The position numbers and the translations under genes were made by a program. Under the pieces are notes generated by a model that did no database searches, was not told where the DNA came from, and saw nothing but the letters and a program-made list of their open reading frames with translations. Below are positions 33,601 through 63,400 of a stretch of DNA of 64,000 nt, one piece after another. Within the stretch, counting starts at the first letter, position 1. Every line of letters starts with the position of its first letter. Source of the stretch: Gemmatimonadota bacterium (GTDB lineage Bacteria > Gemmatimonadota > Gemmatimonadetes > Longimicrobiales > Gaopeijiaceae); the NCBI GenBank assembly GCA_028873845.1, contig JAPPNO010000022.1, positions 1-64,000 of the forward strand, given 5' to 3'.

Positions 33601-35157
33601 CCCGCCCTGCCCCGTCTCGATTTCAGCATCGAGGTCGACTCGGAGAAGAACCTGCGCGATTCCCTCGTGGCGCTTGCGTCCGCGGAAGCCGTGGACCGGA
33701 GCTGGGTCTCGGCCGAACAGATCGTCGAGACCGTGACGAACCTGGGCGCGCTGCGCGAGGCGGGGCTGTACCGCGACGCGCTGGCCTACCACGATGTCGG
33801 CGAGATGCGCGTGCGGGTCGAGTGGGACGAGGAGGAGGACGAGGCGGAGGAGGACGAGCACGAGGCGCCGGAGGACTCGCTGGAGGTGGAGGCCGACTCC
33901 TTGCAGGTGGAGGAGGACTCGTCATGGGTCACGGCCATCCTCCCCGACAACGGGTTCCCCGCCCCGCTCCCCGTGTGGACCGACCTCCTTCCCGAGGGGT
34001 GGAGCTACCAGGGCGAGCGCATTGTCCAGTGGGAGACGCCGATCCCCCCGCCCGAGGGCCACGAGATGACGGCCATGATGAGTCAGGCGTTCGACGAAGC
34101 ACACATGTATCACGCCGGCGAGAGCTACCTGGGCAGACAGATCTGGGCGATGGACCTCATGTCCCCCATCGCCGCCACCCACTGGTCGCGCGTCAAGGCC
34201 ACCACCTTCAAACCCACCGTGATCTACTCCGCGCGCGAGCACGCCAACGAGGTCTCCTCCACGAGTCATGTGCTGCGGCACGCCGAACTCCTGCTTACCG
34301 ATTCCGTGCAGCGCGCCAGGCTGGACAAGGTCAACGTGGTCATTCATCCCTTCACCAATCCGGACGGTGCGCAGCTCGCCTACGACCTCTACCGGATCAC
34401 TCCCGACTACATCCTGCACGCGGGCTACCTGGGATCGCTCGGCGTGGGCGTGGGCGGCGGCTTCGGATCGTTCCCCATCTATCCCGAATCCACCGTGCGC
34501 AACGAACTCTGGGGCATGTGGTTTCCCGACATCTTCCTCAACCCCCACGGCTACCCGAGCCACCAGGTCGTCCAGCTCTTTTCCGAGTACAGCGGTCTCG
34601 TGCGCGGCGGGCGCGTGACGGAGCGCAACTGGGGCTTCAACAAGGGTTGGTTCATGCCGGGCTTCAGCTACATCGACGACCCCTCCTTCCCCCGCCACAA
34701 GGACGCCGCCTTCAAGATCCGCGATTACATTACCGCCGGGATCAACTCCAACCGCGACGTCTTCGAGATGAACCAGCGCACCTACGACCGCTACCGCCGC
34801 TACGGCGCCGACTTCGACAACGACGAGGTCTTCCGCCTGCCCATGACCGACAGCGTCATGATCCACATGCCGCTCAAGGGTTCGGCCGGATTCGGGGGCG
34901 GCGGCAGTTTCAGTCCCCGGATCACCATCTGGAACGGAATCACCGAGGCACCCGACGAAACCGCGCACGGGCCGTGGATGGAACTGGTGGCGAAGGCGGG
35001 TCTGTCGTGGGACCAGGCGATCCTGGACTACCTCTACGATGGCGATCACGAAGTGGACCGGAGCGGTTCGGCGTTTCGGGGGGGCGCGACGTTGAGGATG
35101 AACAGGGCGAGGCCGCCCCGCGAGAAGAAGGAGGATGAGGGTGGGGAAGATCGCTGA
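30685..35157 (+). CDS. Very large exported M14-family zinc carboxypeptidase-like protein
   Basis: A 1490-residue protein with a signal peptide (LLPLLALGLPLTAQ). The M14 domain lies at about 1150-1400. The zinc motif HxxE is in SAREHANEVSSTSH near residue 1186, with NPDGAQLAYDLYRI and FLNPHGYPSHQ downstream, the latter a candidate third ligand. Residues 1-1100 have no recognised domain apart from a Pro/Asp-rich stretch near 130-175. An acidic segment of Glu/Asp repeats (about 1050-1085) precedes the peptidase domain. The C-terminus is basic. The last 400 codons recur as decayed copies at 49985-50244 and 55256-55619. The ECF sigma gene follows within 30 bases. Confidence 0.82.
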   Translation: MRHLHHPPAPLLPSLLPLLALGLPLTAQSPTPPPQTPPPFHLATLFDLGHLLLDENGDGVPDRLGASIILPPDPTDAERAAAAEITARLGFETMSLDLPVRRGLQPGRVGILIGLRALDVAGLSPSDFGLTITPPPDPPDPGQEGEPADPGTDTDPDTESPGPDSTPAPAIPPDPPPTVVTLTAPDGARWVAVLGGNDEALLRAARHLAGSLPHVSNLSGPSLQEVTNQLGTWLAGTDSTAPAPTLDFHHATLPDSTNHVHFTATLAYDDDPGATRARYALDRLQILAWERVGENADGPGSDDLRFRDLASLTFEAAGRQVILPTLVTPSPSGPGSRPRGGAKGGLDLSNLYTTSGFLGGGQIPSAIDVVVVPGRGAEGIPDLTARMTLETTGFTVPIVRGLDEIRSPSAEPTAVLVGSDNPHITELIDSGTISIDDLGPGRGLIEAVPDGFGGKRALVVTGADAEGAALATKRLAEVFPNVSVRGDGKPTFDDIEHELWGTLSGYTPGGQAAFGLYKLDQVMAELTGELAEAGERIASAEILMSLWKPSDGVAGFVRDRALAHFPDSIAPEITVTIDNRDVQNASTIIDDQFEVPSEVDRFWTVFNEPIAGHIEDGEPVHLEARLSEPPEIRASVAAEARRRLIDAGADPDATTVQVLSAFKQGFSWLRESVAPRLAGRDIGEIVIEFLRNDPPEEWPHQSIHTPLRWLHEIFPIDEVLVADMGLDLGQIRFEMADEGPIYRVHATAPDGSTLLEDTFNPVWVLRPYFDRFRDYEQVRVTTGWVTAISGTDTLVHERIITDPEWVWDRYQASTLPAIWDYVMDRHDARPRGGPDAPFFGTLTIDLELSEPDYRLGIDNEIIAPMDALHEEFYFGTIEFFTLTGRNAQGGGLSYPGRIIPVMRPKGDGAAGRGHITMTGFAASRPTVIVRYETAEGTTGERRRDITKVSMGRPSLYRAVIAPAADGGAGADSPALPRLDFSIEVDSEKNLRDSLVALASAEAVDRSWVSAEQIVETVTNLGALREAGLYRDALAYHDVGEMRVRVEWDEEEDEAEEDEHEAPEDSLEVEADSLQVEEDSSWVTAILPDNGFPAPLPVWTDLLPEGWSYQGERIVQWETPIPPPEGHEMTAMMSQAFDEAHMYHAGESYLGRQIWAMDLMSPIAATHWSRVKATTFKPTVIYSAREHANEVSSTSHVLRHAELLLTDSVQRARLDKVNVVIHPFTNPDGAQLAYDLYRITPDYILHAGYLGSLGVGVGGGFGSFPIYPESTVRNELWGMWFPDIFLNPHGYPSHQVVQLFSEYSGLVRGGRVTERNWGFNKGWFMPGFSYIDDPSFPRHKDAAFKIRDYITAGINSNRDVFEMNQRTYDRYRRYGADFDNDEVFRLPMTDSVMIHMPLKGSAGFGGGGSFSPRITIWNGITEAPDETAHGPWMELVAKAGLSWDQAILDYLYDGDHEVDRSGSAFRGGATLRMNRARPPREKKEDEGGEDR

Positions 35158-36817: not shown

Positions 36818-37360
36818 ATGATGGTGAACAAGAGGACGTTGAGTTGTTTCGTGGTCGTGCTGGCGATGTTCATGGCTAGCAGCATCCGGGCGAATGCGCA
36901 GGAAACGGGAGACGTGACCTGTGCATGGTGCAAGGAGGCTGCCATCTGGACGGATCAGGATCACGCCTTCCCCCTCGGTGGGCACCTGTGTGGCTGGAGC
37001 GGAAGTGGCGAGGGCAATATCTGTTCGCGTTGCGGGGGCAGTTCCAGTTGCCATATCATCTATGTTCCCGGACCGTGCCACATACTCTGTGGGCCTGATG
37101 GTGATGCCACGGCAGCGTTAACGGGAATCCAAGAGGCCTTGGACGCCGACGACATGGTAGCACTTGCGTCGGCCTTACTTCTGGAGCGAACCGGCGTAGA
37201 TGTCGAGTTCATTCCCGAAGGCGGTCGCATCGACCTACTCCTTCCTTGTGATCTCACCCGGCCATTTCACTCCATCCCCGTGTCTCCTGCGGTTCGCGGA
37301 CCATTGGAGATGGAGTTGAGCGCTTATCTCGCGCGCAACGGAGACGTGGTGAGTCCATGA
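36818..37360 (+). CDS. Secreted Cys-rich protein, family A (copy 1)
   Basis: A 180-residue exported protein with signal peptide ending SIRANAQ. The mature N-terminal half is Cys- and His-rich: CAWC, HAFPLGGHLCGW, CSRCGGSSSCH, CHILCGP. The C-terminal half contains VEFIPEGGRIDLLLP and a second conserved block near residue 160. The same architecture is seen at 40560-41126 and 42849-43439. ATG 36818 is preferred over 36806 because GGAGG lies 5-9 bases before it. A 6-bladed propeller lipoprotein follows 40 bases downstream. No known family is recognised; disulfide or metal binding is possible. Confidence 0.75.
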   Translation: MMVNKRTLSCFVVVLAMFMASSIRANAQETGDVTCAWCKEAAIWTDQDHAFPLGGHLCGWSGSGEGNICSRCGGSSSCHIIYVPGPCHILCGPDGDATAALTGIQEALDADDMVALASALLLERTGVDVEFIPEGGRIDLLLPCDLTRPFHSIPVSPAVRGPLEMELSAYLARNGDVVSP

Positions 37361-37400
37361 CTCGATCAAACGAGAGCGCCTCGCACAGGTTCTCTTGGTG

Positions 37401-38681
37401 ATGGGATTCCGCGTGGCGTCGTGGTCCCGGTCGTTCGGTTCGCTGGCTTTGACTTGTACCGTTGCAGCTTGCGACCGTCCCCCGACCACGGGTCGGTCGC
37501 CGACCGTGACGATCCGTGACTCGGTCGGCATCGAAATCGTCGAGAACCACACTCCTCAATGGGAGGAGGGAGCCGCCTGGACGGTCGCACGGACGCCCGA
37601 AATCGCCATCGGCGGATACCGCGACAAGATTGACGCCGATTCCTCCCATCTGGTTTGGAACATCGGTGATGTCTCGGTCCTGTCGGACGGTCGTGTCGCC
37701 ATGATTTCCAGGGGCGAGAGAAAAGTGCTCGTCTTTGAGCGCTCGGGTGCGTTTTCGCGATCGATCGGTCGAGTAGGACGCGGTCCGGGTGAGTTCGGCA
37801 ATCCCGAGCACCTTCAGGTGCTGCCCGGCGATACGCTTGTGGTGTGGGACTTCATGTTCGGGCCGGTGGCCTATTTCGATCCCTCGGGCAAGCTCCTGCG
37901 TGACTGGCGCATTGATGTCGGTGCGCTGTTTGAGGCAACGCGGAAGCCGAATCAGATGTCTCCAGAACGAGTGCATTTGCCCTTGCCGGACGGGTCATTC
38001 ATTGTGGAAGCCATCTTGGTACCGGGTGGTTTCATCCCGCCCTTCGGAGAGCCCTACCGGGTCCCCATAGAGTTCTTGCGGATCGACTCCACCTATTCCG
38101 CGTATTCGTTGGGTCGCTGGGAGGAGGGGGAGCATGTCTACTTGCAGCCTCCGGGTCCTCCGGGCCTTCCGTTTCCGTTCGGAGTGCAATTGGCGACCGG
38201 GGGAACACCGCTCTCCGTGTACATCACCAACTCCGACCAGTACGAGATTCGCCAATACTCCGTTAATGGCGGGCTTCGCAGGATTCTCAGGCGCACGGAA
38301 GACGCGATCCCCGTCACAGCCACCGACATCGAGAAATGGAAGGAGCAATGGGAGGCCTGGTCCGGAAGATCCCAGGACTGGAGTTCCTGGGACCGGGCGA
38401 TGGCTGAGTTGCCACCGCGCATACGGCCACCGCTCACGGGCCTCCTGGTGGATGCCCGAGGCTACCTATGGGTGATGGATCGATACCGCCTGGACCGAAC
38501 AGCGAGCGAATGGAGCGTTTTTGATCCGTTCGGCCATTGGCTGGGTACGTTGGACGTACCGTTGGGACGCGTCGATTGGATTGGGGAGGACATGATACTC
38601 GGAGTTCGTCAGGATCTGGAAACAGGGGTGCAGGTTGTGGAGGGCTATCGGCTGCACACGGAAAGCGAGCCGCCATCGTAG
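37401..38681 (+). CDS. 6-bladed beta-propeller lipoprotein
   Basis: A 426-residue lipoprotein (lipobox LTCTVAAC, Cys near 24). It contains the family hallmarks VTIRDSVGIEIVENHTP, GRVGRGPGEFGNPEHLQVL, DTLVVWD and later VDARGYLWVMDRY. This is the Gemmatimonadota/Bacteroidota type of 6-bladed propeller. Alternative starts TTG 37395 and GTG 37398 are close. It is the partner of the Cys-rich gene just upstream, and the same pairing recurs at 41-43 kb, 45-47 kb, 52-53 kb and 62-63 kb. Its likely role is extracytoplasmic binding; the ligand is unknown. Confidence 0.82.
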   Translation: MGFRVASWSRSFGSLALTCTVAACDRPPTTGRSPTVTIRDSVGIEIVENHTPQWEEGAAWTVARTPEIAIGGYRDKIDADSSHLVWNIGDVSVLSDGRVAMISRGERKVLVFERSGAFSRSIGRVGRGPGEFGNPEHLQVLPGDTLVVWDFMFGPVAYFDPSGKLLRDWRIDVGALFEATRKPNQMSPERVHLPLPDGSFIVEAILVPGGFIPPFGEPYRVPIEFLRIDSTYSAYSLGRWEEGEHVYLQPPGPPGLPFPFGVQLATGGTPLSVYITNSDQYEIRQYSVNGGLRRILRRTEDAIPVTATDIEKWKEQWEAWSGRSQDWSSWDRAMAELPPRIRPPLTGLLVDARGYLWVMDRYRLDRTASEWSVFDPFGHWLGTLDVPLGRVDWIGEDMILGVRQDLETGVQVVEGYRLHTESEPPS

Positions 38682-39018
38682 TGCGCCGTTCGCCGGGAAG
38701 GAGTTCGCCCGGTCTACGAAGAAGCGAAGGGTCGTCTCCGGGCTTGGCGAGGTCGTCTTGATACACTTTGGTCCCCTTTTTGCCGGTGCCGACAGCGTAC
38801 GAGAAATGGGCGACGCGCTCGGTAGGACGATCCGCCCCACCGCCCGCACCGCCATCTGCGCCGCCATCGCCACCACGAATCGCCTCGAAGAGCTGGGTGA
38901 ACCCGCTCCTCGGACGGGCCCAGGGCACCTGCGCCCGCCGGATTCCGCACGAGGGACCACTTCACCTGGAGCGCGCTACACGTGCGCGGCGACAATCAAG
39001 ATGAGAGCGTTGCGACAA
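38682..39018. other. Gap without a recognisable gene
   Basis: Short open frames exist on both strands, but none resembles a known protein. The segment abuts the IS21 remnant and probably contains part of its end. Confidence 0.4.
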
Positions 39019-39757
39019 TCAAGGTGAGTACGGGGGGTCGCGACGCTGGGGTGCTGGGATGATGGTGGGGTGTTGGGTTGGGGGCAAGGGTGTGGTGTGG
39101 GGGGTGGGCGTGGGAACGGTGGCCGGGGCGGTCGACGGCGGCGACGGCCATGCACCGAGCGGTTCTCGTAGCGCGCGCCGATGAGCTCGAAGAGAACGCT
39201 GGTTCTCCGCCCCCTCGGACGTGACGTAGGAGAAGTCGTCGAGGATGAGGAGGTGGTACTTGAAGAGCTTGCCGATGGCGGCGTCGAGGGCGAGGTCCCG
39301 GCGCGCCGCCTGGAGCTTCTGCACCAGGCTCGCCGTGCGGTGGTAGAGGACCCGGAACCCGTTCTCGACGAGCCTCAGCCCGAGACCCGCCGCCAAGTGG
39401 CCTTTTTTCCGTGCCAAGCGGGCCGAACAGAAGCACATTGGCCCCTTCCTCGAGCCAGATGTCGCCGCTCGCCAGCACGCCCACACGCGCCTTCGAGACC
39501 GCGGGAACGAGCGTGAAGTCGAAGTGTTCGAGCGTCTTGCCGCGCGGCAGCTTCGCCTCGGCCCGGTGCCGCTCGAAGCGCCGCCGCTCCCGGTCGGTGA
39601 CCTCCTGGGCGGCCAGCGCGGCGAGCAGGCGCGCCGAGGACCAGCCCTCCCGGTCCGCGCGTTCCGTGAAGCTCCGCCACAGGGCCCGCATGGTGGGCAG
39701 GCGCAGTTTGCTTGAGCAGCAGGTCGACTTGTGGCGGGTCCACGACGAAGGGGTCGT

Positions 39758-39761
<4 letters not shown>
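39019..39761 (-). pseudogene. IS21-type istB remnant
   Basis: Frames joined across at least three shifts spell an IstB helper ATPase. It starts MNDPFVVDPPQVDLLLKQ, continues MRALWRSFTERADREGW, then the Walker A region VLLFGPLGTEK. In the next frame are FRVLYHRTASLVQKLQAARR and the Walker B LLILDDFSYV. Shifts lie near 39712, 39405 (an A run) and 39170. The start overlaps the istA remnant stop as ATGA, typical of IS21. Not functional. Confidence 0.8.
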
Positions 39762-40559
<798 letters not shown>

Positions 40560-41126
40560 TCAGGGTGACAAGACGGCAGCCATCGGCTCCAAATCCATAA
40601 GGGATGCCAGTTCCGCACTCAGCGAGTTGCGAATATCGCCGGGTGGTACCGGCAGAAACTTGGCTACAACACTAGGATCAGAAGCCAAAAAGAAATCAAT
40701 GCGACCGCCGGCCGGCCGGTATTCGACGGTTACGTCAGCGCCGGAGGCGGCCACAACCGCCACCGCCACAGCAACTATGCCTTCCTCTTTCAATCCGTGC
40801 TGAATGGCTTCGAAGGCCTCGGCCAACTGATCCCCACTTGCCCCGCAAGCTGCATGGCAGGAGCCTGGCATGAACACAACGTGGCACGCTGACTTGTCCC
40901 CCCCGCAGGTGGCGCACGTGGAGCCACAATCCGGGGGCCACCCACCACACGAATCCCCCCCAAACGGGAATCCATGCCAAACCGTACCATCAGGCGAGTG
41001 ATGGCTACACCAGCCACAAGACGACTCCTCCTGCGCCACACCTACCGTTGGAAACAGGAGAGAAAAGGCGAGGGCCACCCCCACCAAGAGCATGCACACA
41101 GACGGAACGAGGCTACGTTCGGACAT
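40560..41126 (-). CDS. Secreted Cys-rich protein, family A (copy 2)
   Basis: A 188-residue exported protein, signal peptide ending PTVGVAQ. The mature part has CGWC, HGFPFGGDSCGGW, CATCGGDKSACH, CHAACGA, and later VEYRPAGGRIDFFL and a VPPGDIRNSL segment. These match copy 1 and copy 3 position by position. ATG 41126 is chosen because GGAGAAAGG ends 8 bases upstream; an ATG at 41159 would lengthen the signal region. A near-consensus sigma-70 promoter lies at 41196-41225. Its stop codon touches the IS21 remnant. Confidence 0.75.
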   Translation of the reverse strand: MSERSLVPSVCMLLVGVALAFSLLFPTVGVAQEESSCGWCSHHSPDGTVWHGFPFGGDSCGGWPPDCGSTCATCGGDKSACHVVFMPGSCHAACGASGDQLAEAFEAIQHGLKEEGIVAVAVAVVAASGADVTVEYRPAGGRIDFFLASDPSVVAKFLPVPPGDIRNSLSAELASLMDLEPMAAVLSP

Positions 41127-41195
41127 TTCAACAACCTTTCTCCACGGTTTGTTTCGCATCGGATGAGGGATCGTCCTTTCGAAATGTCTTATTGC

Positions 41196-41225
41196 ATTGT
41201 AGTCCGTGAGCAGACGGCGTGTCAA
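41196..41225 (-). promoter_or_regulatory. Near-consensus sigma-70 promoter
   Basis: On the minus strand TTGACA (41225-41220) and TACAAT (41201-41196) are separated by 18 bases. It is 70 bases upstream of the Cys-rich gene at 41126. Such consensus is rare in this GC-rich window. Confidence 0.7.
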
Positions 41226-41324
41226 GCTGGAGCCCAGGGCGGTGTCCAAACCTGTCGGCCAACCCTTTTGACGGGACGTGCGCAGCCCGGCTCGTGGTGA
41301 GGCTACCGCAGCCGCCTCAGGCCT

Positions 41325-41395
41325 CAAGGGCTCATGGCGCCGCTGCGCGACCGGAGGTTCTTCTCGCTCGGCGAACTCCGCGAGGCCGTCCGGCC
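41325..41395 (+). pseudogene. Short istA fragment
   Basis: The plus strand encodes APLRDRRFFSLGELREAVRP, a match to the middle/C-terminal part of IS21 IstA transposases. It is oriented opposite to the larger IS21 remnant and is only about 70 bases long. Confidence 0.5.
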
Positions 41396-41422
41396 GAGGA
41401 TCTGGACCGGCCACAACGACGC

Positions 41423-42874
41423 CTATCCGTCGCGGAGGATCCGATAGACCTCCACCCTCTCGGCACCCCATTCATCGATTCTCACGGTCACGTAGGAATC
41501 CGTTCCGATCCAGCACAGATGGCAATGACTCAGATCCGGCAAGCCGGTTGGGGATGGTTCGTCGAGGAAGCCAAGCCACCGTCCTTCGGGGTTGAAGACA
41601 CTCCAACGATCCGGTAGTCCCGTCTCGGACTCTGACCACTCCCGGACCCAAAGGTGGCCTTCGAGGTCAACAAGCAGACCGTGGACAGGGGGATACGTTT
41701 CCGACTTCGGCGTTGCTTCGATCAGTGGCAATCGCCATTCGCCCTCCGGGAAGACACTCAAGAAGCGTATTCCGTTCTGTGCCCGCGCCCGACGGGCTTG
41801 TTCGGTTACGGGCACCGGACTTGTCGTGCGACGAATGATGCGAACAAGAACTCCGTCGAGCGAAAACTGCTGGATCTCGTTCCTGTCCCCGGAACTGATG
41901 TAGACCGATGCCGGATGACCACCTACCGCAATGTGAGACGTGAGATCAGTGTTGAAGAAGTAGTCGTCAGCCATTAGCTGATAATGGGAAATGGGAGATG
42001 CTCTCCCGAACTCTTCCGGGACGGCCCAATGCTGTCGCCCACCCCAGGTTCCAAAGGAAATGGCGACGTATTCCTTGTCCAGTCTGACGTATTCCTCCGG
42101 ATGATGTCTGACCAGCTCGTAGTCCCGTGGGCGCGTGCGACCACTTGCTTCACGCCTTTTGATGGATACGATGAAGGACCCATCAGGCACTGGATACGTC
42201 CGGGATTCGGCGCTCGCCTGGTCCGGCAACTCGGCCAACGCCCTGCCCAGGTCGGTGGTTCTGCGGTCCAGCACCCTTCCGGCAGTGTCGAAACGCGTGA
42301 CGGGACCCATCCAATGATCCCACACGACCAGGGTGTCCGGCGGAAGATACCGCAGGTGTCGCGGTCGGGAGAATTCGCCGGGCCCTCGCCCTCGTCGGCC
42401 TATCGTCCTGGAGAGCGCGCCCGATGGTTCGAAGAGGTAGAGTTCACGGTTTTCCGACGAAAGCACCGCCACCCTCCCATCCACCAAACGGGCCAGACCA
42501 CTAACTCGCCATATGGCGGCAGAGACACTGTCCTGGGTATTGGTCCCACCGTCGGCCGCGCCAACGCCCGCACTGCCTCCCAAGCTGAACAGGGGATTGG
42601 GGTCAATGGTCCAGAACTGGCCCCGTGGGTGCTCGGGAGCGTGGTTCACTACGATTTCGACACCTGCGGAATCGTGCACCGTGAAAGCCGCCTCCCAGTC
42701 GGGCGAACCAGGGTCGGGGCCATTCTCCCCGTGTGGCGCACGATCACACCCCACCGCAATCGTCGGGACGAAAAGAAACAACTGGACCCAGACCACCGAC
42801 CTCAATGGAAGCAACCCAGCGGCAAATCCACGGATGCGTCGCGCTATCTTAGGGCGAAAGTCCAATGGCGGCAT
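41423..42874 (-). CDS. 6-bladed beta-propeller lipoprotein
   Basis: A 483-residue lipoprotein (lipobox VPTIAVGC, Cys near 43). Shared blocks are FTVHDSAGVEIVVNHAPEH, GRRGRGPGEFSRPRHLRYL, DTLVVWDHWMGPVTRFD and LLVDLEGHLWVREW. It is the nearest relative of the propeller at 37401. Its start overlaps the end of the Cys-rich gene at 42849 by 26 bases, so the pair is translationally coupled in the order peptide then propeller. The ligand and function are unknown. Confidence 0.82.
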   Translation of the reverse strand: MPPLDFRPKIARRIRGFAAGLLPLRSVVWVQLFLFVPTIAVGCDRAPHGENGPDPGSPDWEAAFTVHDSAGVEIVVNHAPEHPRGQFWTIDPNPLFSLGGSAGVGAADGGTNTQDSVSAAIWRVSGLARLVDGRVAVLSSENRELYLFEPSGALSRTIGRRGRGPGEFSRPRHLRYLPPDTLVVWDHWMGPVTRFDTAGRVLDRRTTDLGRALAELPDQASAESRTYPVPDGSFIVSIKRREASGRTRPRDYELVRHHPEEYVRLDKEYVAISFGTWGGRQHWAVPEEFGRASPISHYQLMADDYFFNTDLTSHIAVGGHPASVYISSGDRNEIQQFSLDGVLVRIIRRTTSPVPVTEQARRARAQNGIRFLSVFPEGEWRLPLIEATPKSETYPPVHGLLVDLEGHLWVREWSESETGLPDRWSVFNPEGRWLGFLDEPSPTGLPDLSHCHLCWIGTDSYVTVRIDEWGAERVEVYRILRDG

Positions 42875-43439
42875 CGGATGTCACCTCTCCAAGAGCCGCA
42901 AGTTCCGCCTCCAGCAAGACGCGGATATCGCCGGGCGGAACCGCCAATGTCTTGGCTACAGTATCCGGATCGGATGTTAGAACGAATTCGATCCGACCGG
43001 CCTCAGGCAGATACTCGACCGTCAGACCAGCGGGATGCTCAGCCAGAAGAATGGTCGCGACCGCGACTGGGTCTCGTACCTCAAGAGCCCCTTGAATGGC
43101 GCCTGCGGCACCACCGAGGACACCGCCAGCTGGCCCGCATAGTATGTGACATTGTCCGTCCTGCCTGTCCCTATGGCAGGTCGAACCTGTCCCCCCACAG
43201 CGAGAGCATACCTGACAAGGCAGGTTCGGTGTCGGCCAACTACACTGTTCTCCCCCTTGTGGGAACGAGTGTTTCGGATTGTTCAAATCGGAGCGATCCT
43301 CCACACACCAACCACAGGTCGGGGTCTGCGCCACAGTTGGTGCGGGGACCAACAAGGAGACCGCGATGGCCACCCACACGGAGAGCATGAAGACAGACGG
43401 AACAACGCCACGTGCTGGTATGCGAGTACCTTTCTTCAC
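42849..43439 (-). CDS. Secreted Cys-rich protein, family A (copy 3)
   Basis: A 196-residue exported protein; the signal peptide ends VPAPTVAQ. The mature part shows CGWC, HSFPQGGEQCSW, CQVCSRCGG, CHRDRQDGQCHILCGP, then VEYLPEAGRIEFVLTSDP and VPPGDIRVLLEAELA. GTG start at 43439. It begins a two-gene unit with the propeller at 42874. A TTGCCG/TACTAT promoter pair lies upstream at 43523-43551. Fixed Cys and His spacing with copies 1 and 2 suggests a disulfide- or metal-stabilised domain. Confidence 0.75.
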   Translation of the reverse strand: MKKGTRIPARGVVPSVFMLSVWVAIAVSLLVPAPTVAQTPTCGWCVEDRSDLNNPKHSFPQGGEQCSWPTPNLPCQVCSRCGGTGSTCHRDRQDGQCHILCGPAGGVLGGAAGAIQGALEVRDPVAVATILLAEHPAGLTVEYLPEAGRIEFVLTSDPDTVAKTLAVPPGDIRVLLEAELAALGEVTSDAAIGLSP

Positions 43440-44751: not shown

Positions 44752-45354
44752 ATGAAGCGGTACCAGGATGTGGCACTGTTCCTTCTGCTCTTGGCCATCG
44801 TTGCGCAGACCCTTCACGTCATGGTCCGCGCCCAGCCCGCGGACGATACGACGGCCCCGGCACCGACGGCGCTGATCGGGGACACGGTGCCAGCGCTGAC
44901 CGGCTACACCGAAGACAGCGTCCAGACCACGGTTTCCCTCGTAGCCGACGGCCAGCACGCCGCGACGGTCGTCTACGCCTTCCATCCCGCGTGCGCGTTC
45001 TGTGACGCGGTGGCCCCTGAATGGGCCGCCCACTTCGCTGCGGAGGATCCGAACGCGGCTCCCGTTCGAAGGATTGCCGTGACCCGCGAGGTCCCCGAGC
45101 CCGCCGCGACCTACGCCCAGCAGTTCAACTGGGACATCGACCTGTTGAGCGTATCGGGCTTCGCGGAAACGGGCCCGGAGGCCTTCCTGTTATCGAGAAC
45201 CCCTTGGGTCTACGTCTTCGACCCGGACGGCGTCCTCCGGTTCGACGCTCACGGAGCCGATCTGGAGCACGTGGACCGCGCCGTGGCCGAAGTCACCTCC
45301 GTGTCGGGGGCGGCCCGGCGTTCTGGAGTCGGCGAGATGAGCGAAGTGAAGTGA
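44752..45354 (+). CDS. Membrane-anchored thioredoxin-like (TlpA-type) protein, cassette 1
   Basis: A 200-residue protein with an N-terminal hydrophobic anchor (ALFLLLLAIVAQTLHVMV) and no clear cleavage site. Then follows a thioredoxin fold: YAFHPACAFCDAVAPEWAAH carries the CAFC redox pair, and LSRTPWVYVFDPDGVLRFD carries the cis-proline. It is predicted to face the periplasm and exchange disulfides. It is first in cassette 1, and its end overlaps the propeller gene by 4 bases (GTGA). Close paralogues are at 51129 and 56091. A natural partner is the Cys-rich peptide two genes downstream, though this is inference. Confidence 0.82.
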   Translation: MKRYQDVALFLLLLAIVAQTLHVMVRAQPADDTTAPAPTALIGDTVPALTGYTEDSVQTTVSLVADGQHAATVVYAFHPACAFCDAVAPEWAAHFAAEDPNAAPVRRIAVTREVPEPAATYAQQFNWDIDLLSVSGFAETGPEAFLLSRTPWVYVFDPDGVLRFDAHGADLEHVDRAVAEVTSVSGAARRSGVGEMSEVK

Positions 45355-46697
45355 AACGTCTCCCACGCACGCTCGCACTCCCGGTGATCTTGGGCATGTC
45401 CTCATGCGACGGGCCACGACCCGTGGACATGCCGGTCGTCGCGATCGACCCGCAGTCGCTCACCGTGCTGTCTCCCGCCCAGGACGCTTTGTGGGATGTC
45501 AGGGATGTCCTGGTCGCAGACGATACGATATGGGCCCTGACGGCCTCCGCGCCCCACGTTCACGGCTTCGGACCGACCGGGAAGCTGACGGCCAGATTCG
45601 GAAGGGTCGGACAGGGACCCGGTGAGTTCCGTTTTCCATCAGCCATGTGGCCCGGCGGAGTCGGCGGCTCCCTTACGGTGTGGGATTCGGGATCCTTCAC
45701 GGCTCTTACGTTCTCCACCGGCGGAGCTTGGCTCTCCTCTTCACGCACCCCCGTTCGGGGGGCCATCCGGTCGGACATCGGTACCGTCACCTTCGGCGAC
45801 CCACTTCGCGCCGTCCCTGTGACCGGCGGTCTTGTTGTGGCGCGCTACGACTCGGGGGTCAACCACGGACGCGATCTGTGGAACGGACGGCTGGTGCACA
45901 TCCCCGACGACGGCGGTGACCCACGGGTGCTGCTTGACTTCGCCACGGATCTACCGGGAGCCGCTCGCCTCCCCGCCGCCAGCCTCATGGCCCCCGTACC
46001 CCTTTGGGACGGTTGTCCGGATGGACGAATTGCCGTTCTTGATCCCGTTGCCCGGAAGCTCTTCATGGTGGACCCGGCTCGAAACGAGTTTGGCGCCTTC
46101 GCCCTTCCCTGGCATCCCGAACCGTTGGGCACCGACGCCCGCATTGCATACATGAGGTCGAGGGCCCGGGCCGAGACCGCCCGAGGGAGCGTTTCGGAAG
46201 CCGAGATCACTCGCCTTGCCACCGAGGCGGCCGCGAGTCTCGCCGAGCTGTTCGCGAAGGAGGAGCCACTCGGGGTGGACCTCAAGTGTGCCCCGGACCG
46301 GGTCTGGATCCGGAGCTTCGAGGGATCTGATCCTCTCGGCAATGGTCCCCTGTGGAGAACAGTGAGCCTCCACCGGGCGCTCCCCGCCTTCTCCCGCGTG
46401 GTCTTCCCCGCCGGTTTCATCCCACACCGCATTACCGAGTCGCTTGCCTTCGGCGTGGTCGCCGACGCCGGTGGCCTGCAGCGCCTCGCGACCGTCCTTG
46501 TTCCGCCATTCGCCCGTCAACGCTCGCACCATCACCACCTGCCATCCCGGCCACAGGCCAGGCGTGGCCCACGAATTCAGGAGATCTCAAGCCGTGAAAA
46601 ACAAGCCCATTTGGATACTAATCGCGTTTCTCGCCAATCTCGCACTCCTGCCGCTCGTCACAGGAGCGTCGGAGGGGAGGGCGCAGGAAGCTCGTAG
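45351..46697 (+). CDS. 6-bladed beta-propeller lipoprotein, cassette 1
   Basis: A 448-residue lipoprotein (lipobox VILGMSSC, Cys near 19). Family segments are ALWDVRDVLVADDTIWALTA, GRVGQGPGEFRFPSAMWP, RAVPVTGGLVVARYDSGVNH and WDGCPDGRIAVLDPVA. It differs from the propellers at 37.4 and 41.4 kb and is closest to the paralogue at 51704. The last 35 codons run into the Cys-peptide gene in another frame, whereas the cassette 2 paralogue stops at that gene's start. The extended tail is probably a lost stop codon or small shift. GTG start overlaps the thioredoxin-like gene stop. Confidence 0.78.
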   Translation: MKRLPRTLALPVILGMSSCDGPRPVDMPVVAIDPQSLTVLSPAQDALWDVRDVLVADDTIWALTASAPHVHGFGPTGKLTARFGRVGQGPGEFRFPSAMWPGGVGGSLTVWDSGSFTALTFSTGGAWLSSSRTPVRGAIRSDIGTVTFGDPLRAVPVTGGLVVARYDSGVNHGRDLWNGRLVHIPDDGGDPRVLLDFATDLPGAARLPAASLMAPVPLWDGCPDGRIAVLDPVARKLFMVDPARNEFGAFALPWHPEPLGTDARIAYMRSRARAETARGSVSEAEITRLATEAAASLAELFAKEEPLGVDLKCAPDRVWIRSFEGSDPLGNGPLWRTVSLHRALPAFSRVVFPAGFIPHRITESLAFGVVADAGGLQRLATVLVPPFARQRSHHHHLPSRPQARRGPRIQEISSREKQAHLDTNRVSRQSRTPAARHRSVGGEGAGSS

Positions 46698-46824
46698 CGC
46701 TTTCTTCTTCCATTGCTGCAAGAAGACGACATCCGGGCGGCCCTACTGCTGTGACAGGTGTTGCCTCTTCGTATGGAACTGTCTGACCAACGAGGACTGC
46801 GAGAGGCTAGAACAGCATGAATGA
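46594..46824 (+). CDS. Short Sec-exported 8-Cys peptide, cassette 1
   Basis: A 76-residue precursor with a signal peptide of 31 residues (KPIWILIAFLANLALLPLV, ending EGRAQ). The mature peptide is about 45 residues with cysteines spaced CC-x9-CC-x2-CC-x5-C-x5-C. The same spacing is found in the paralogue at 52948. The GTG start is preceded by AGGAGAT. It overlaps the end of the propeller gene. No known peptide family is recognised; a disulfide-rich, secreted effector or signal is the simplest reading. Too small to be found by most automatic annotation. Confidence 0.78.
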   Translation: MKNKPIWILIAFLANLALLPLVTGASEGRAQEARSAFFFHCCKKTTSGRPYCCDRCCLFVWNCLTNEDCERLEQHE

Positions 46825-46998
46825 AGCCCCCGGGGGCCCCGATCGGGGTCCGTTTCGGTCTTCGGCCCCGTCGGGGTCAGTCTTGGGAGGTCGCTGGCTT
46901 GCCTCCCACATGGGCTCTCCGCCACCTGGCGGAAATCCCGGGATACCGAGGGGATTCGCCTCTCGGACCCATCCACCTCCCTCACAGGAGACAGTCAC

Positions 46999-47709: not shown

Positions 47710-47914
47710 CATGCAAGAAACATAGGGAACAAGGCGTCAAGGAACGAATACGAGAGCAAGCTCTAATGTTCCGAGGGCACTGGTCGGCTAGCTTCCGTCT
47801 CGGGGTGTGAACAGCGGTGGCGCGGACCGCCAGCTCGGGTGAACCAAACCCGTGACGGGGGCAGCGAACCTCGCTCCCATTGACAGACGCCCACCCCCAC
47901 GCCCTACTCAATCC

Positions 47915-50103: not shown

Positions 50104-50244
50104 GACGTGCCGCTCGAGGGTTCGCCCGGATTCGCGGGCAGCGGTAGTTTCAGTCCCCGGATCACCATCTGGAGCGGAATCACCGAGGCAACGGACGAAA
50201 CCGCCCCGCGAGAAGAAGGAGGATGAGGGTGGCCAGCCCGGCTG
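49985..50244 (+). pseudogene. Decayed copy of the M14 gene 3' end (junction 1/2)
   Basis: Reading CATTCATCCCTTCACC onward, this stretch follows the M14 gene (34340-35157) with two internal deletions and many substitutions. It ends with the same Arg/Lys/Glu-rich C-terminal codons and a stop at 50244. The sigma gene follows at the same distance as downstream of the intact M14 gene. It marks a duplication boundary. Confidence 0.75.
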
Positions 50245-50272
50245 ACCATCCAACGGGGGAAGGCGCTGACAG

Positions 50273-51128: not shown

Positions 51129-51707
51129 ATGAAGCGATACCAGGATGTGGTGCTGTTCCTGCTGTTGCTGGTCGTCGTCGCCCAGGCTGTGCAGGTGGTT
51201 GTTCGACCCGGGCCGGCCGCCGACGGCGTGGCACCGGCACCGGGCGTGCTGGTCGGCGACACGCTGGGCGCCCTGACGGGCCACATCGGCGACGGCGTCC
51301 TGGGGATCGTGCCGCTGGATGCGGATCCCGGCACGGTCACCGTGCTCTACGCGTTCAACTCCGAATGCGCGTTCTGTGACGACGTGGCGCCTGAGTGGGC
51401 CGGTCACTTCGGCTCCGCTCCACCAGGTGCGACGATCCGGAGAATCGCCGTTACGCGAGACCTTCCCGGCCCGGCAGCGACCTACGCCGAGCGGTTCGGG
51501 TGGCAGGTCGACCTGCTCAGCGTCGCGCAGACCCCGCAATCCAGCCGGGAATCGTTCCTGGTCTCGAGGACACCCTGGGTATACGTGCTTGACTCGGACG
51601 GCGTGGTGCGCTTTCAGGACCACGGGGCCGAACTGCGTCGCCTGGAGGAGGCGATCGCCGCCATCCGTTCTCCCGGCACCGGGCAGTTGACGGGAGGTGG
51701 CGGATGA
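51129..51707 (+). CDS. Membrane-anchored thioredoxin-like protein, cassette 2
   Basis: A 192-residue paralogue of the protein at 44752. N-terminal anchor VVLFLLLLVVVAQAVQVVV, redox pair in FNSECAFCDDVAPEW, cis-Pro in VSRTPWVYVLDSDGVVRF. GGAGGCAGG directly precedes the ATG. It ends in an ATGA overlap with the propeller gene. The gene is well preserved, with conserved catalytic residues, and so is probably functional. Confidence 0.82.
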   Translation: MKRYQDVVLFLLLLVVVAQAVQVVVRPGPAADGVAPAPGVLVGDTLGALTGHIGDGVLGIVPLDADPGTVTVLYAFNSECAFCDDVAPEWAGHFGSAPPGATIRRIAVTRDLPGPAATYAERFGWQVDLLSVAQTPQSSRESFLVSRTPWVYVLDSDGVVRFQDHGAELRRLEEAIAAIRSPGTGQLTGGGG

Positions 51708-52951
51708 AGCGTTTCCTGCCCTGGTTCGTGATTTCGGCGGTCGCGGTGGGATCTTCCTGCGACCCGGGGACCGACCTGGATTGGCCGGTCATACCGATCG
51801 GCCCCCTGTCGCTTACCGTTGTCTCCGCGGCCGAAGATCCATTGTGGGAGGTGAGGGACGTCCTGGCGCATGGCGGAACGTTCTGGGCCCTGACGGCCTC
51901 GGCGCCCTACGTACACGGCTTTGCCCCCACCGGCGAACTGACCACGCGGTTCGGGACGTCGGGCGACGGACCCGGCGAGTTCCGCTTCCCTTCCGCCGTC
52001 TGGCCCGGCAAGACCCCTGGTTCACTCACGGTGTGGGACCCGGGTTCCTTCTCGGCCTTCACCTTCTCCGGATACGGGGCCCTGCTCTCTTCGCTGCGCG
52101 CACCCGTTCCAGGCGCCATTCGCTCCGATATCGCCAGCGTCACCTTCGGCGATCCGTTCCGGGCCGTGAGGGTGGCGGGAGGCCTTGTCACCGCACGCTA
52201 CGAATCCGGTGTCAACCACGGTACCGACCTTTGGAGCGGCCGTCTGGTTCGCATCCCGGACGACGGGGGCGACCCGCAGGTGCTGATCGATTTCGCCACG
52301 GAACTCCCGGGAGCCGCGGTGCGCCCGGCCGGCAGCCTTCTGGCCCCGGTTCCCCTCTGGGATGGCTGTCCCGACGGACGCATCGCGGTTCTCGATCCCG
52401 TCGCCCGAACCCTTCTCATGCTGGATCCCGACGGTGATGTGCGGGAAACGCTCGCCCTGCCGTGGGACCTTGCCCCGCTGGATAGCGACGCCCGGATCGC
52501 GTACATGACTGCCCGGGTCCGGTCCGAAGTCGAGGACGCCAGCGTGTCCGAAGCCGAGATCGTGAGCCACGCGACCGAGGCGGCGCGGAGCGCGGCCGAA
52601 ATGTTCCCGGTGGAGGAGCCGCTCGGCATCGATCTCAAGTGCGCGACCGGGACGGTCTGGATCCGGGAGTTCGACGCAACCTCGCATCCCCTCGGCTTCG
52701 GTCCGCTGTGGCGAACCGTGAGCTTCGACGGAGAGACCCCCACCCTCTCGCGCATCGTCTTCCCCTCCGGCTTCAATCCCTACCGAATTACCGAGGCGCT
52801 TGCCATCGGCGTCCTGCTCGACCCCGTGGGTCTGCAACGCGTGGCGACCGTCTCTCTTCCGCAATCCTCCCGCCGAAGCCCTTCTCCGTCACCGCCCCCC
52901 AAACCCACGTACCCAACCGTGGTCCAAGCCCAAGGAGATTCCGAACCATGA
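51704..52951 (+). CDS. 6-bladed beta-propeller lipoprotein, cassette 2
   Basis: A 415-residue lipoprotein (lipobox AVAVGSSC, Cys near 19). Shared blocks with the cassette 1 copy: LWEVRDVLAHGGTFWALTA, GTSGDGPGEFRFPSAVWP, VNHGTDLWSGRLVRIPDDGG and DGCPDGRIAVLDPVARTL. The ATGA overlap at the 5' end couples it to the thioredoxin-like gene. Its stop overlaps the start of the Cys-peptide gene (ATGA at 52948). It represents the intact form of the cassette. Confidence 0.82.
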   Translation: MKRFLPWFVISAVAVGSSCDPGTDLDWPVIPIGPLSLTVVSAAEDPLWEVRDVLAHGGTFWALTASAPYVHGFAPTGELTTRFGTSGDGPGEFRFPSAVWPGKTPGSLTVWDPGSFSAFTFSGYGALLSSLRAPVPGAIRSDIASVTFGDPFRAVRVAGGLVTARYESGVNHGTDLWSGRLVRIPDDGGDPQVLIDFATELPGAAVRPAGSLLAPVPLWDGCPDGRIAVLDPVARTLLMLDPDGDVRETLALPWDLAPLDSDARIAYMTARVRSEVEDASVSEAEIVSHATEAARSAAEMFPVEEPLGIDLKCATGTVWIREFDATSHPLGFGPLWRTVSFDGETPTLSRIVFPSGFNPYRITEALAIGVLLDPVGLQRVATVSLPQSSRRSPSPSPPPKPTYPTVVQAQGDSEP

Positions 52952-53169
52952 GGAAGAAGCCCACCTGGATTCTTATCGCGTTCCTCGCCAATCTGGCATT
53001 GCTGCCGCTTGTGATGGCGCCCGAGGGGCGGGCGCAGGGGACGGGAGACCCTTTCTACCACTGTTGCAAGAAGGCTCCGTCGGGGAATCGGTATTGTTGC
53101 GAACGGTGCTGTGTGTTCATTTACAATTGCAAGAGCCACGAGCACTGCAAGAAGCGGGGAGAGCCTTGA
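52948..53169 (+). CDS. Short Sec-exported 8-Cys peptide, cassette 2
   Basis: A 73-residue precursor. Signal peptide KPTWILIAFLANLALLPLV ends PEGRAQ. The mature part, 43 residues, repeats the CC-x9-CC-x2-CC-x5-C-x5-C spacing of the cassette 1 peptide, with invariant HCCKK and a YCC-acidic-RCC core. The signal peptide is nearly identical between copies while non-Cys residues of the mature part have changed. That pattern is common for effectors under diversifying selection. AAGGAGAT precedes the ATG. Confidence 0.82.
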   Translation: MRKKPTWILIAFLANLALLPLVMAPEGRAQGTGDPFYHCCKKAPSGNRYCCERCCVFIYNCKSHEHCKKRGEP

Positions 53170-56090: not shown

Positions 56091-56675
56091 ATGAAGCGGT
56101 TCCAGGATGTGGCGCTGTCCCTTCTGGTCTTGGCCATCATTGCGCGGACTCTCCACGTCATGGTCCGCGCCCAGTCCGCAGACGATACGATGGTCCCGGC
56201 ACCGACGGTGCTGATCGGAGACACGGTACCAGCTCTCACCGGTTACGCCGAAGACGGTGTCCTGACGACGGTCTCCCTCGATTCCGACTCCTACACCGCG
56301 ACGGTCGTCTACGCATTCCACCCCGAGTGCGTGTTCTGCGACCTTGTGGCCTCCGAATGGGCCGCTCACTTCGCTGCGGGCGATCCGAAGGCGGCTCCCG
56401 TTCGAAGGATTGCCGTAACCCGCGAGCTCCCCGGGCCCGCCGCGACCCACGCCCAGCAGTTCAACTGGGACATCGACCTGTTGAGCGTATCGGGCTCCGT
56501 GGAAATGAGCCCGGAGGCCTTCCTGGTATCGAGAACGCCCTGGGTCTACGTCTTCGACCGGGATGGCGTCCTCCGATTCCACGCTGACGGAGCCGAGGTG
56601 GAGCATGTGGACCAGGCTATGGCTGAAATCGCGTCCCTGTCGGAGGTGGCCCGACGTTCGGAGTCGACGAGATGA
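56091..56675 (+). CDS. Membrane-anchored thioredoxin-like protein, cassette 3
   Basis: A 194-residue paralogue, closest to the cassette 1 copy. Anchor VALSLLVLAIIARTLHVMV, redox pair in FHPECVFCDLVASEW, cis-Pro in VSRTPWVYVFDRDGVLRF. The reading frame is intact, and the end overlaps the propeller gene (ATGA). It may still be functional although downstream genes of the cassette are damaged. Confidence 0.8.
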   Translation: MKRFQDVALSLLVLAIIARTLHVMVRAQSADDTMVPAPTVLIGDTVPALTGYAEDGVLTTVSLDSDSYTATVVYAFHPECVFCDLVASEWAAHFAAGDPKAAPVRRIAVTRELPGPAATHAQQFNWDIDLLSVSGSVEMSPEAFLVSRTPWVYVFDRDGVLRFHADGAEVEHVDQAMAEIASLSEVARRSESTR

Positions 56676-58171
56676 GAGAAGTGCAACGGCTCGCACGCTC
56701 GCTCGCGCTCGCTACGATGCTGGCCGTCTCGTCATGCGACGGGCCGCAATCGGTGGACATGCCCGTCATCCCTATCGACCCGCAGGCGCTCAACGTGCGC
56801 TCTCCCGTCCGGGACGCGTTGTGCGATGTCAGGGATGTCCTGGTCGTCGATGACACGATATGGGCCCCGACGGCGTCCGCGCCCTACGTTCTCGGCTTCG
56901 GACCGACCGTGAAGCTGACGGCCAGATTCGGAAATGGCGGACAGGGACCCGGGAAGTTCTGTTTTCCTTCGGCCATCTGGCCGGACCGATCCAGCGGCTC
57001 CCTTACCGTGTGGGATTCGGGATCCTCCCCGGCTCTCACCTTCTCAGCCGGCGGAGCGCTGCTCTCCTATGCGGGCACCGCCCTTCGGGGAGCCATCCGG
57101 TCGGACATCGGTACGGTCACCTTCGGCGACCCATTCCGGGCCGTCCCCGTGCCCGACGGTCTTGTCGTGGCACGTTACGACTCGGGGGTCAACCACGGCA
57201 GAGACCTGTGGAACGGCCGGCTGGTGTACATTCCCGACGACGGCGGTGACGCAAGGGTGCTGGTCGACTTCGCCTCGGACCTCCCGGGAGCCGCGCACAT
57301 CCCCACCACCAGCCTTCTGGCGCCCGTGCCCCTTTGGGACGGTTGTCCCGATGAGCGCATCGCCGTTCTCGATCCCGTTTTCCGTTCGCTCTTCATGGTG
57401 AATCCGGCTCAAAACGAGCGTGCCCTAGTCACACTGCCCTGGCATCCCGGCGCGCGGGGCACCGACGCCTGCATTGCATACAAGAGGTCGAGGGTCGAGG
57501 CCGAGATCGACCGGGGGAGCGTTTCCGAAGCCGAGATTGATTGCCTGGCGGCTGAGGCGGCGGCGAACCTCGCCGACCTGTTTGCACAGAAGGAGCCCAT
57601 CGCCGTCGACCTCAAGTGTGCCCCCGACCGGGTCTGGATTCAGAGATTCGAGGGATCTGATCCTCTCGGCTGTAGTCCCCCTGGGGACGACAGTGAGCCT
57701 CTACCGGGGATCCCCGGCATTCTCGCGCGTCGTCTCTCCCTCCGCCTTCATCCCGCACCGTATTACCGAGTCGCTTGCCTTCGGCATGGTCGCCGACGCC
57801 GGTGGCATGCAGCGCCTCGCGACCGTCCTTCTCCCACAGTTCGTCCGTCAACGCCCGCCATCACCATCTACTATCCCAGCCACGCCTCTAGCGTGGCCCA
57901 CGAACCGGGGAGACCTCAAGCCATGAAGAACAAGCCCACTTGGATACTAATTGCGTTCCATACCACCCTCGCACTCCTACCGATCGTCATAGGAGCGTCG
58001 GAGGGGAGGGCGCAGGAGCCTCGTAGTGCCTTTTTCCACTATTGCAAGAAGACGGCGTCGGGTCGGCCTACGGTTGTGACATATGTTGCCTCTTCGTCTG
58101 GAACTGCCTTACCACCGAAACCTGTGAAAAGACGAGAACAACCTCGCGGCGCGGACTTGTTCAGTCCCTGA
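56672..58171 (+). pseudogene. 6-bladed propeller gene with frameshift, fused to peptide frame (cassette 3)
   Basis: Codons 1-335 follow the cassette 1 propeller (lipobox AVSSC, QGPGKFCFPSAIWP, GVNHGRDLWNGRLVYIPDDG). Near 57680, one extra base in a C/G run shifts the frame, and the rest of the propeller is read out of frame. The new frame has no stop and continues in phase through the Cys-peptide gene start at 57923, giving a single open frame of 499 codons. The conserved blade end (HRITESLAFG) is still readable in the original frame. The fusion is most likely accidental. Confidence 0.78.
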
Positions 58172-61595: not shown

Positions 61596-62780
61596 TCACC
61601 GAGACCGCGATACACCCATACCAATGTCCCATACCTCAACGAAGGGCTCTCCAACCGGACTGTACGTCAGACTCGTAATCGCTACTGTCCCACTTTCGGT
61701 GTCGTCCATCAGAAAATAGCCTACCACCGGGTGGTCGAACCAACCGGACGCCCTCACCGCGCACGCCTGAATATCGATCACTTCGACCCTGGTACGGAAC
61801 ACCGATCCTGGGCCTTGCAGGTATTCCAAGTAGAGTTCTCCCGTCGGCCGAGCTTTCTCAATGACGAGATCTTCCCAATCCGTGCGGCGATAGAAAAGCA
61901 TAACCCACAATCGACCTTCTTGGTCGATGTGAATGTCGCGAAGGCGATTCCAAGGCGGATGGTCCAGTGTCGTGCTCCTCCCCGGTTCCCTCCTCAATCC
62001 ATCGTCCAAGTCGGGTCCACTTAGTTTGCCGACTCGTGAGTTGTCGCTCGCCCATGCTTCAACGACGTAGTTGGAGAGGCTTGCGCTCAGAACGGTGTCA
62101 TTGGAATGAAGGGCAAGCTCGCGCCGCATGAGCATTGGCGTCATCGGTCCAGAGGCGCTCGTTGGCCGTGGCCCGAAGGAGGATACGATTCTCCCGTCCG
62201 CACCCAAGCGGTGCAAGGCAAGGCCAACTCGGTCGAGGCTGGAAATCCAGGTCTGAAGTACGTACCGGCCAGAGGTTGATGTCTCGCGCGATGGCATCAC
62301 CATATCACGAACGAACCCACCGGGCACCGAGGTCTCGTCTGCCAAGGTGAAATCCGCGTTGAGTGCCGTGACCCGCTTGTTTCGATTATCGAGCACATGG
62401 ACCCGCCCATTCGAATCGACACCGATCAGCCGGACTGCGGAAAACTCCAGCGGCCCCTCGCCTGCCCGGCCGACCTTGGCGACAAAGGCGCCATCGGCGT
62501 CGAACACCTTGATTTCTTCCCCTTGCCCAATCCAGTAGCGTCCGCGGGGATCCCGCACGACACGGAGCATGCTAGTGACCCCCACCAAGAAGCCTGGGTC
62601 ATCGCCCGTTTCTCCCAAGCGGTGGGCCAACTCGAAGTCAAGGCATCCCTCACAGTCAGCAACGGCGGGCAGCTCACAGGTAGCCAAGGCGAATGAACCG
62701 GTACCGGCACCGGCGTTCGACTCCCCGCGGTCGGGATCGCAGGCGACGACTAACAGCACGACCGGCAGGATCCGCGACAT
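61596..62780 (-). CDS. 6-bladed beta-propeller lipoprotein
   Basis: A 394-residue lipoprotein (lipobox VVLLVVAC, Cys near 12). Recognised blade elements: GRYWIGQGEEIKVFDADGAF, GRAGEGPLEFSAVRLIGVDS, DRVGLALHRLGADGRIVSS and IHIDQEGRLWVMLF. ATG 62780 with GGAGCGG upstream makes a proper lipoprotein signal. An ATG at 62894 would overlap the Cys-rich gene stop as ATGA but would place 38 polar residues before the signal. Start choice is therefore open. Divergent from the other propellers in this window. Confidence 0.78.
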   Translation of the reverse strand: MSRILPVVLLVVACDPDRGESNAGAGTGSFALATCELPAVADCEGCLDFELAHRLGETGDDPGFLVGVTSMLRVVRDPRGRYWIGQGEEIKVFDADGAFVAKVGRAGEGPLEFSAVRLIGVDSNGRVHVLDNRNKRVTALNADFTLADETSVPGGFVRDMVMPSRETSTSGRYVLQTWISSLDRVGLALHRLGADGRIVSSFGPRPTSASGPMTPMLMRRELALHSNDTVLSASLSNYVVEAWASDNSRVGKLSGPDLDDGLRREPGRSTTLDHPPWNRLRDIHIDQEGRLWVMLFYRRTDWEDLVIEKARPTGELYLEYLQGPGSVFRTRVEVIDIQACAVRASGWFDHPVVGYFLMDDTESGTVAITSLTYSPVGEPFVEVWDIGMGVSRSR

Positions 62781-62890
62781 CAACCGCTCCAGCGTCCCGA
62801 CGCGGCTGCCCGCGGAAGTGTCGCCGCAACCAAGCGACCGGATCACTCGCTCACAAGCCAGCGGTCCGGTCGCTTGGCGACTATAGGTCG

Positions 62891-63400
62891 TCATGACTGG
62901 GATTGCGGTTGCAGCGCTTGTTGTGTGAGGGCACGGACGCCGAGGCGAGCCAACGCGGATGTCGACTGGGAACTCAAAAACACGACGGCGGTCACGTCAT
63001 TGCTACAGGCCGAACCTCGAACGGCTAACAGACGGCGACTCGCATGCAGCAGAATGCGGTCGGAGAGCGTCGCGACTAAACGCCGCAGATCCTGGCCGGA
63101 AGTGCTCTCAATCTCCCGCGCGATGGCAAGCGCCGATGGTGCGATGTCGCTGACGCTGTTAGTGGCAGTGCATACGTCACACAGGTCCTTTACCTCGTTG
63201 GGGCATTTCATGTTGTATGATCCGCCGAACTTCGCACCCTGAAGGCTCAAATCGTTGACACCGCACTCGTGGCACTCCCTGCCGCAATCCTGAGCGGCGA
63301 CCGGTGTAGGTGTCGCTACCACGACTCCTGCGGCCGCTGTGGCAGTGATGGCGACCGCAGCGAGTGCCGTCCGAGGGTTCCACATGTTCCAGTTGAGCAT
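62891..63400 (-). CDS. Exported Cys-rich protein, separate family (first gene of 63-kb operon)
   Basis: A 169-residue protein with a long signal peptide ending TPVAAQ. The mature N-terminus has CGRECHECGVND, then MKCPNEVKDLCDVC, with six cysteines in total before residue 80 and one near 133. The remainder is helical without cysteines and ends in a Gln/Ser-rich tail. It has the same layout (signal, Cys cluster, about 90-residue tail) as family A but little sequence similarity. GGGAGG lies before the ATG. It is followed by a propeller and a metallopeptidase. Confidence 0.72.
   Translation of the reverse strand: MLNWNMWNPRTALAAVAITATAAAGVVVATPTPVAAQDCGRECHECGVNDLSLQGAKFGGSYNMKCPNEVKDLCDVCTATNSVSDIAPSALAIAREIESTSGQDLRRLVATLSDRILLHASRRLLAVRGSACSNDVTAVVFLSSQSTSALARLGVRALTQQALQPQSQS

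Follow-up and report, generated by a model that had tools for sequence, protein, structure and literature searches.

Families of small exported cysteine-rich proteins form co-inherited two-gene modules with DUF5128 propeller lipoproteins in Gemmatimonadota

Several described systems bring together small cysteine-rich proteins, propellers or both. The NCBIfam family NF033852 takes its name from fulvocin C of Myxococcus fulvus, and the label "fulvocin C-related" is an annotation by similarity. In methylamine dehydrogenase, a propeller heavy chain and a cysteine-rich light chain are accompanied by the thioredoxin-like MauD. The NVEALA proteins (PF14055) we take to be small exported proteins of Bacteroides that neighbor DUF5128-type propeller lipoproteins. 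DUF5128 itself (PF17170) comprises six-bladed propeller lipoproteins, of which BF0058 from Bacteroides fragilis has been solved (4raa). Tsi1 is an exported immunity protein that is propeller-like (PMC3391265). Our literature search found no paper on NVEALA, on DUF5128 or on the pairing of cysteine-rich proteins with propellers.

The window that we analyzed is 64,000 nucleotides long and covers bases 1-64000 of a contig of 77.6 kb; the genome to which it belongs measures 4.05 Mb. Beyond about 34 kb, its G+C content falls from about 70% to 58-67%. This drop, the insertion-sequence-like remnants and the repeated cassettes together suggest that the stretch from about 34 kb onward is a variable island.

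Family A and the propeller loci of the window

Three genes in the window encode the exported Cys/His-rich proteins that we term family A: A1 (36818..37360, plus strand), A2 (40560..41126, minus strand) and A3 (42849..43439, minus strand). A1 has a ribosome-binding-site-like sequence and a signal-peptide-like start in addition to its motifs, and A2 and A3 were assigned from motifs and alignment. The motifs that the original prediction named for the copies at 36818, 40560 and 42849 are all present in all three open reading frames. They read CAWC, HAFPLGG, CSRCGGSSSCH, CHILCG and VEFIPEGGRI in A1; CGWC, HGFPFGG, CATCGGDKSACH, CHAACG and VEYRPAGGRI in A2; and CGWC, HSFPQGG, CSRCGGTGSTCH, CHILCG and VEYLPEAGRI in A3. 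A1 is homologous to A3 (E 3e-26) and to A2 (E 5e-24), and these three are the only full family A copies in the source genome. Across an alignment of 16 members, 8 cysteines and 3 histidines are invariant at 45% mean column identity, which excludes chance similarity; once the invariant columns are removed, the Cys module is 28% identical. The spacing from CxWC to the CxxCG knuckle ranges from 30 to 49 residues, and the mature proteins are acidic, with a net charge of -5 to -17.

When aligned and run in profile searches, as had been proposed, the three proteins brought up no known unrelated enzyme family. Pfam returned no match for A1, A2 or A3 and no usable match for the 16 members (E up to 1), NCBIfam yielded nothing usable, with NF033852 failing to match A1, A2 or A3 at E up to 10, and a sequence search of the PDB was equally unproductive (best E 1). 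The AlphaFold2 model of A1 is confident only in the C-terminal domain (helix, helix, three strands, helix); the Cys module is modeled poorly, with a pLDDT of about 50. With this model, Foldseek gave no significant match (best E 0.86) and VIA-align reached a best Z of 5.5, a level that the tool rates uninformative. Relatives of A1 were absent from the viral contigs and plasmids searched. The 16-member alignment lacks a conserved CxxCH haem-binding motif of the kind found in c-type cytochromes, and the Pfam profile of the methylamine dehydrogenase light chain, a test at the level of sequence, was not among the matches of the 16 members (E up to 1). Judged from sequence, family A is one new family with relatives in neither Pfam, NCBIfam nor the PDB.

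The propeller lipoprotein P1 (37401..38681, plus strand) begins 40 bp after A1, and a second one, P2, lies at 41423..42874 on the minus strand. Both score above the curated gathering cut-off of PF17170, at 34.5 and 26.6 bits, respectively, against 22.9. A Foldseek search with the P1 model (pLDDT 84.2, pTM 0.85) matched NHL propellers at an E of 2e-12 and 4raa at 3.9e-10, and P1 is predicted to have a six-bladed propeller fold of the NHL type, although its blades were not individually counted. Read along the minus strand, the genes run A3, P2, A2, so that A3 has P2 directly after it and A2 lies downstream of P2. The expectation that propellers lie directly downstream at 37401 and 41423 is thus borne out for A1/P1 and A3/P2 but not for A2, which P2 precedes and which lacks a downstream propeller of its own, the next features after it being insertion-sequence-like remnants. 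Such remnants flank the modules at 38996-40423 (recognized by reading) and 58245-59324 (with HTH matches), and the former occupies the position expected for a propeller after A2.

Further cysteine-rich genes beside propellers lie toward the end of the window. The family B exported Cys-rich protein (62891..63400, minus strand) has a propeller directly downstream (61596..62894, minus strand; PF17170, 28.1 bits). A peptidase-MA-like exported protein (60798-61586; Pfam below cut-off) comes after this pair. At 44752-60610, a cassette containing a sigma factor, a TlpA-like protein, a propeller, a Cys-rich peptide, a membrane protein and an HTH regulator occurs in three consecutive copies that are progressively decayed. 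The first copy encodes, on the plus strand as do the others, a TlpA-like exported thioredoxin-fold protein with a CxxC (44752..45354, by reading; Pfam below cut-off), a propeller (45351..46697, by custom profile; Pfam below cut-off) and a small exported Cys-rich peptide (46591..46824). The corresponding genes of the second copy are at 51129..51707, 51704..52951 (custom profile) and 52948..53169. In the third, the TlpA-like gene (56091..56675) is followed by a propeller (56672..58171) in whose frame the decayed peptide continues, with most of its cysteines gone. Pieces from the 3′ end of an M14-peptidase-like gene, itself large (30685-35157; PF00246 match), recur between the cassette copies, at 49577-50245 and 55438-55620, indicating that a portion of this gene belonged to the unit that was duplicated. 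Six associations of Cys-rich proteins with propellers had been counted in 27 kb; the count is right, but three of the six stem from this one triplicated cassette, leaving about three independent types in the window.

Parts of the cassette are found again near family A in other loci (L028, L030, L034 and L035). The TlpA-like cassette protein of L028 (8110-8664) reads CAHS, the second cysteine of its CxxC having been lost, so at least one copy is unable to act as a dithiol oxidoreductase.

Partner specificity, co-inheritance and distribution

Families of small exported cysteine-rich proteins in this group are co-inherited two-gene modules, each with its own DUF5128 propeller subfamily. We observe adjacency, a mostly fixed gene order, family specificity, co-inheritance and repeated decay. 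The slot beside the propeller is filled by family A, by family B (window 62891 and relatives), by family C (L095), by family D (L108 and many congeners), by the small peptide of the TlpA cassette and by NF033852 proteins. In a FastTree propeller tree of 177 rows, some long branches of which are unsure (L124, for example), 20 of the 21 partners of family A fall in one 33-row clade (support 99) and 13 of the 14 partners of family D in an 18-row clade (support 99). Three partners of family B sit in a 4-row clade (support 98), three of family C in a 6-row clade (support 100), and all three TlpA-cassette propellers in a single clade (support 100). Upstream of five clade rows that we had first labeled as unpaired lies a partner or remnant, in each case of the family with which the clade is paired (three A, one D and one C). 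Divergence within family A tracks that of its propellers (Mantel r 0.796, 0 of 10000 permutations), although this is expected from linkage alone, even without contact.

By eye, families A, B/C and D seemed to share a C-terminal domain (a helix, a beta hairpin and cysteines). We dropped this idea, as neither profile searches against 1047 other predicted genes nor hhalign gave support.

The frequency of the association was assessed with a mechanical filter that selects open reading frames of at most 260 residues with a signal-peptide-like start, followed by at least 5 cysteines and 3% cysteine. In an unbiased 800 kb of the complete congener genome G021, the filter retained six open reading frames, every one of them beside a propeller that in five cases is directly downstream. 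The same sequence holds 63 propeller open reading frames among about 700 predicted genes, or about 9%, and by our own arithmetic, with five of the cases treated as independent, the chance of such adjacency is roughly 1e-5. In the propeller neighborhoods of the source genome, the filter selected nine open reading frames, none of them more than 264 bp from a propeller on the same strand; the way in which the loci were chosen biases this set, and one member (L090) is doubtful. From 400 kb of the source genome away from known propellers came two. One seems to be spurious; downstream of the other (L189, 4517-5011) lies a frameshift-broken propeller, recognized from its translation. Small exported Cys-rich genes in this group almost always adjoin a family-matched propeller lipoprotein gene.

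PF17170 has 108 matches in the source genome (4.0 Mb) and 144 in G021 (4.5 Mb), a very large lipoprotein expansion, and our custom profile recognizes 136 distinct propeller-like open reading frames in the neighborhoods fetched from the source genome, for which genome-wide statements rest on searches and samples. Most of these propellers are unpaired and either belong to tandem arrays or have unrelated genes as neighbors; the presence of a propeller therefore does not by itself indicate a Cys-rich partner. The proposal that the propeller is a general partner of exported Cys-rich proteins consequently holds in one direction, as in the G021 sample, but its converse fails.

Family A is present in 6 of the 23 genomes of the genus, source genome included, some of which carry six or seven copies or fragments. 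Outside the genus, genome G135 (genus g35 of the same taxonomic family) has two copies (E 1e-20 and 1.5e-18), and no other clear relative was found in a 395-genome sample of the phylum. A contig search with a six-row family A alignment recovered four loci, all from Gemmatimonadetes MAGs. Family A is nearly confined to one gemmatimonadete genus. Two further matches were rejected: one in G030 is weak, lies on the opposite strand to the local propellers, contains a stop and was treated as a chance match, and a weak one in G096 is a dissimilar Cys-rich protein, which also has a propeller beside it.

In the relatives, family A copies and remnants are immediately followed by a same-strand propeller in nearly every case; in L029, by exception, the propeller is directly upstream. 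Both copies in G135 also have a propeller directly downstream, and the pairing is thus conserved in other genomes, within the genus and beyond it. Losses occur on both sides: propellers are kept without a Cys-rich gene, and the opposite is seen in A2, L029 and L189. Integrase-like genes lie near family A in L028, L030 and L033 (by reading). L072 (5405-6562; G000:C74) contains an in-frame fusion, apparently the product of a deletion, between the C-terminal portion of family A and the beginning of a propeller. From gene order and co-inheritance, we infer that the two products of a module are physical or functional partners.

Possible roles of the paired proteins

Our tentative preference is that the exported Cys-rich protein may act as an antagonist of the bacteriocin type, with the propeller as its cognate binder, which would either protect the producer or tether the protein. 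We lean this way on three grounds: NF033852 proteins occupy the same slot, the modules are island-borne with a patchy distribution, and Tsi1 provides a precedent. Two Cys-rich proteins in this slot in G021 (L206) match NF033852 at 56.5 and 62.3 bits (cut-off 35), and four of the five NF033852 loci in the genus adjoin a propeller. In such a system, the Cys-rich protein would be exported through its signal peptide, fold around disulfides or metal sites formed by the 8 invariant cysteines and 3 invariant histidines, and dock directly on the propeller, which a lipid anchor would hold in the cell envelope. Patchy, island-borne and often decayed copies together with many orphan propellers would be the usual remains of a conflict system. 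On the other side, a survey of polymorphic toxin systems lists no propeller domains among immunity proteins (PMC3482391), the predicted acidity of family A is unlike that of membrane-active cationic bacteriocins, and family A lacks a detectable NF033852 match. Because decay runs in both directions, it does not single out an immunity role, and we left unused a tally of which partner decays first, the two sides having been detected with different bias. If the propellers do protect against their partners, the modules would constitute a class of exported Cys-rich antibacterials guarded by propellers, in a phylum of which few members have been cultured; the orphan propellers would then be explained as leftover protection.

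Somewhat unlikely when taken by itself, but almost as likely as antagonism given the invariant histidines and the nearby TlpA-like genes, is a non-toxic two-subunit complex of the envelope in which a large propeller scaffold would be joined by the Cys/His-rich protein as a small subunit for metal binding, redox chemistry or ligand capture. The three invariant histidines stand beside Cys knuckles (CxWC, CxRCG and CHxxCG) and suggest metal sites as much as disulfides, and TlpA-like genes share islands with family A in the window, L028, L030 and L034. Ligand-binding surface lipoproteins with a propeller fold are known as well, BT1954 of B. thetaiotaomicron with adenosylcobalamin being among the Foldseek matches of P1. 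However, family A has no Pfam match, known Cys-rich subunits included, no third gene consistently adjoins it across all loci, and a patchy, multi-copy and decaying distribution is unusual for a metabolic complex. Were it correct, the modules would point to a new envelope metalloprotein or redox complex.

We consider it improbable that the pair is an exported signal or recognition protein with its surface receptor, in which strain-specific Cys-rich ligands and matching propellers would serve kin or partner recognition or adhesion. The variable loops between the invariant cysteines, at 28% identity without the invariant columns, the matched receptor clades of the propeller tree and the sigma-factor genes of the nearby cassettes are consistent with this role, but the propellers carry no signal-transduction domain and most family A loci have no adjoining sigma-factor gene. 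Least probable of all is that two gene types expanding in the same variable islands are neighbors by shared history with no functional partnership: propellers are extremely abundant (108-144 per genome) and clustered, and any linked genes co-diverge, but adjacency in six of six unbiased candidates against a base rate of about 9%, consistent order and strand across several dissimilar families, and the retention by each family of its own propeller clade across genomes, outside the genus too (G135, G096 and G273), all argue against it.

We regard it as a real if still doubtful prospect that the modules are a gemmatimonadete two-gene system built on one propeller scaffold. This scaffold, of which each genome has more than 100 copies, would have given rise time and again to receptors or immunity proteins that are each specific to a partner, serving five or more dissimilar exported Cys-rich families, one of them bacteriocin-related. 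Since a likely binding partner can now be named for each subfamily, part of the very large DUF5128 propeller family becomes testable.

Comparison with known systems

As far as our literature search reaches, this partner-specific two-gene arrangement is undescribed. Its likeness to methylamine dehydrogenase and MauD is an analogy of composition (a propeller, an exported Cys-rich subunit and a thioredoxin-like protein); no sequence match to the subunits of that enzyme was found, and the propeller here is predicted to be six-bladed and NHL-like. The NVEALA profile PF14055 differs in that it matches neither A1, A2 and A3 nor anything else in the source genome. Tsi1 of Pseudomonas aeruginosa is similar in being exported, in resembling a propeller unit and in being co-encoded with an exported partner (PMC3391265). 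That partner, Tse1, is an NlpC/P60 peptidoglycan hydrolase delivered by the type VI system, whereas family A has a signal peptide and no enzyme domain, and the nearest fold to Tsi1 is the DPP IV propeller rather than an NHL propeller.

The NF033852 proteins resemble family A in being small, exported and Cys-rich and, in congeners, in being encoded directly beside the same kind of propeller. Family A differs from them in having no match to the profile and in layout: mature family A proteins carry the Cys module N-terminally, whereas in the fulvocin-like proteins a helical part precedes a C-terminal Cys core. P1 and P2 belong by profile and fold to the DUF5128 propeller lipoproteins, and what sets DUF5128 apart here is its presence in more than 100 copies per genome, with clades that are tied to Cys-rich partners.
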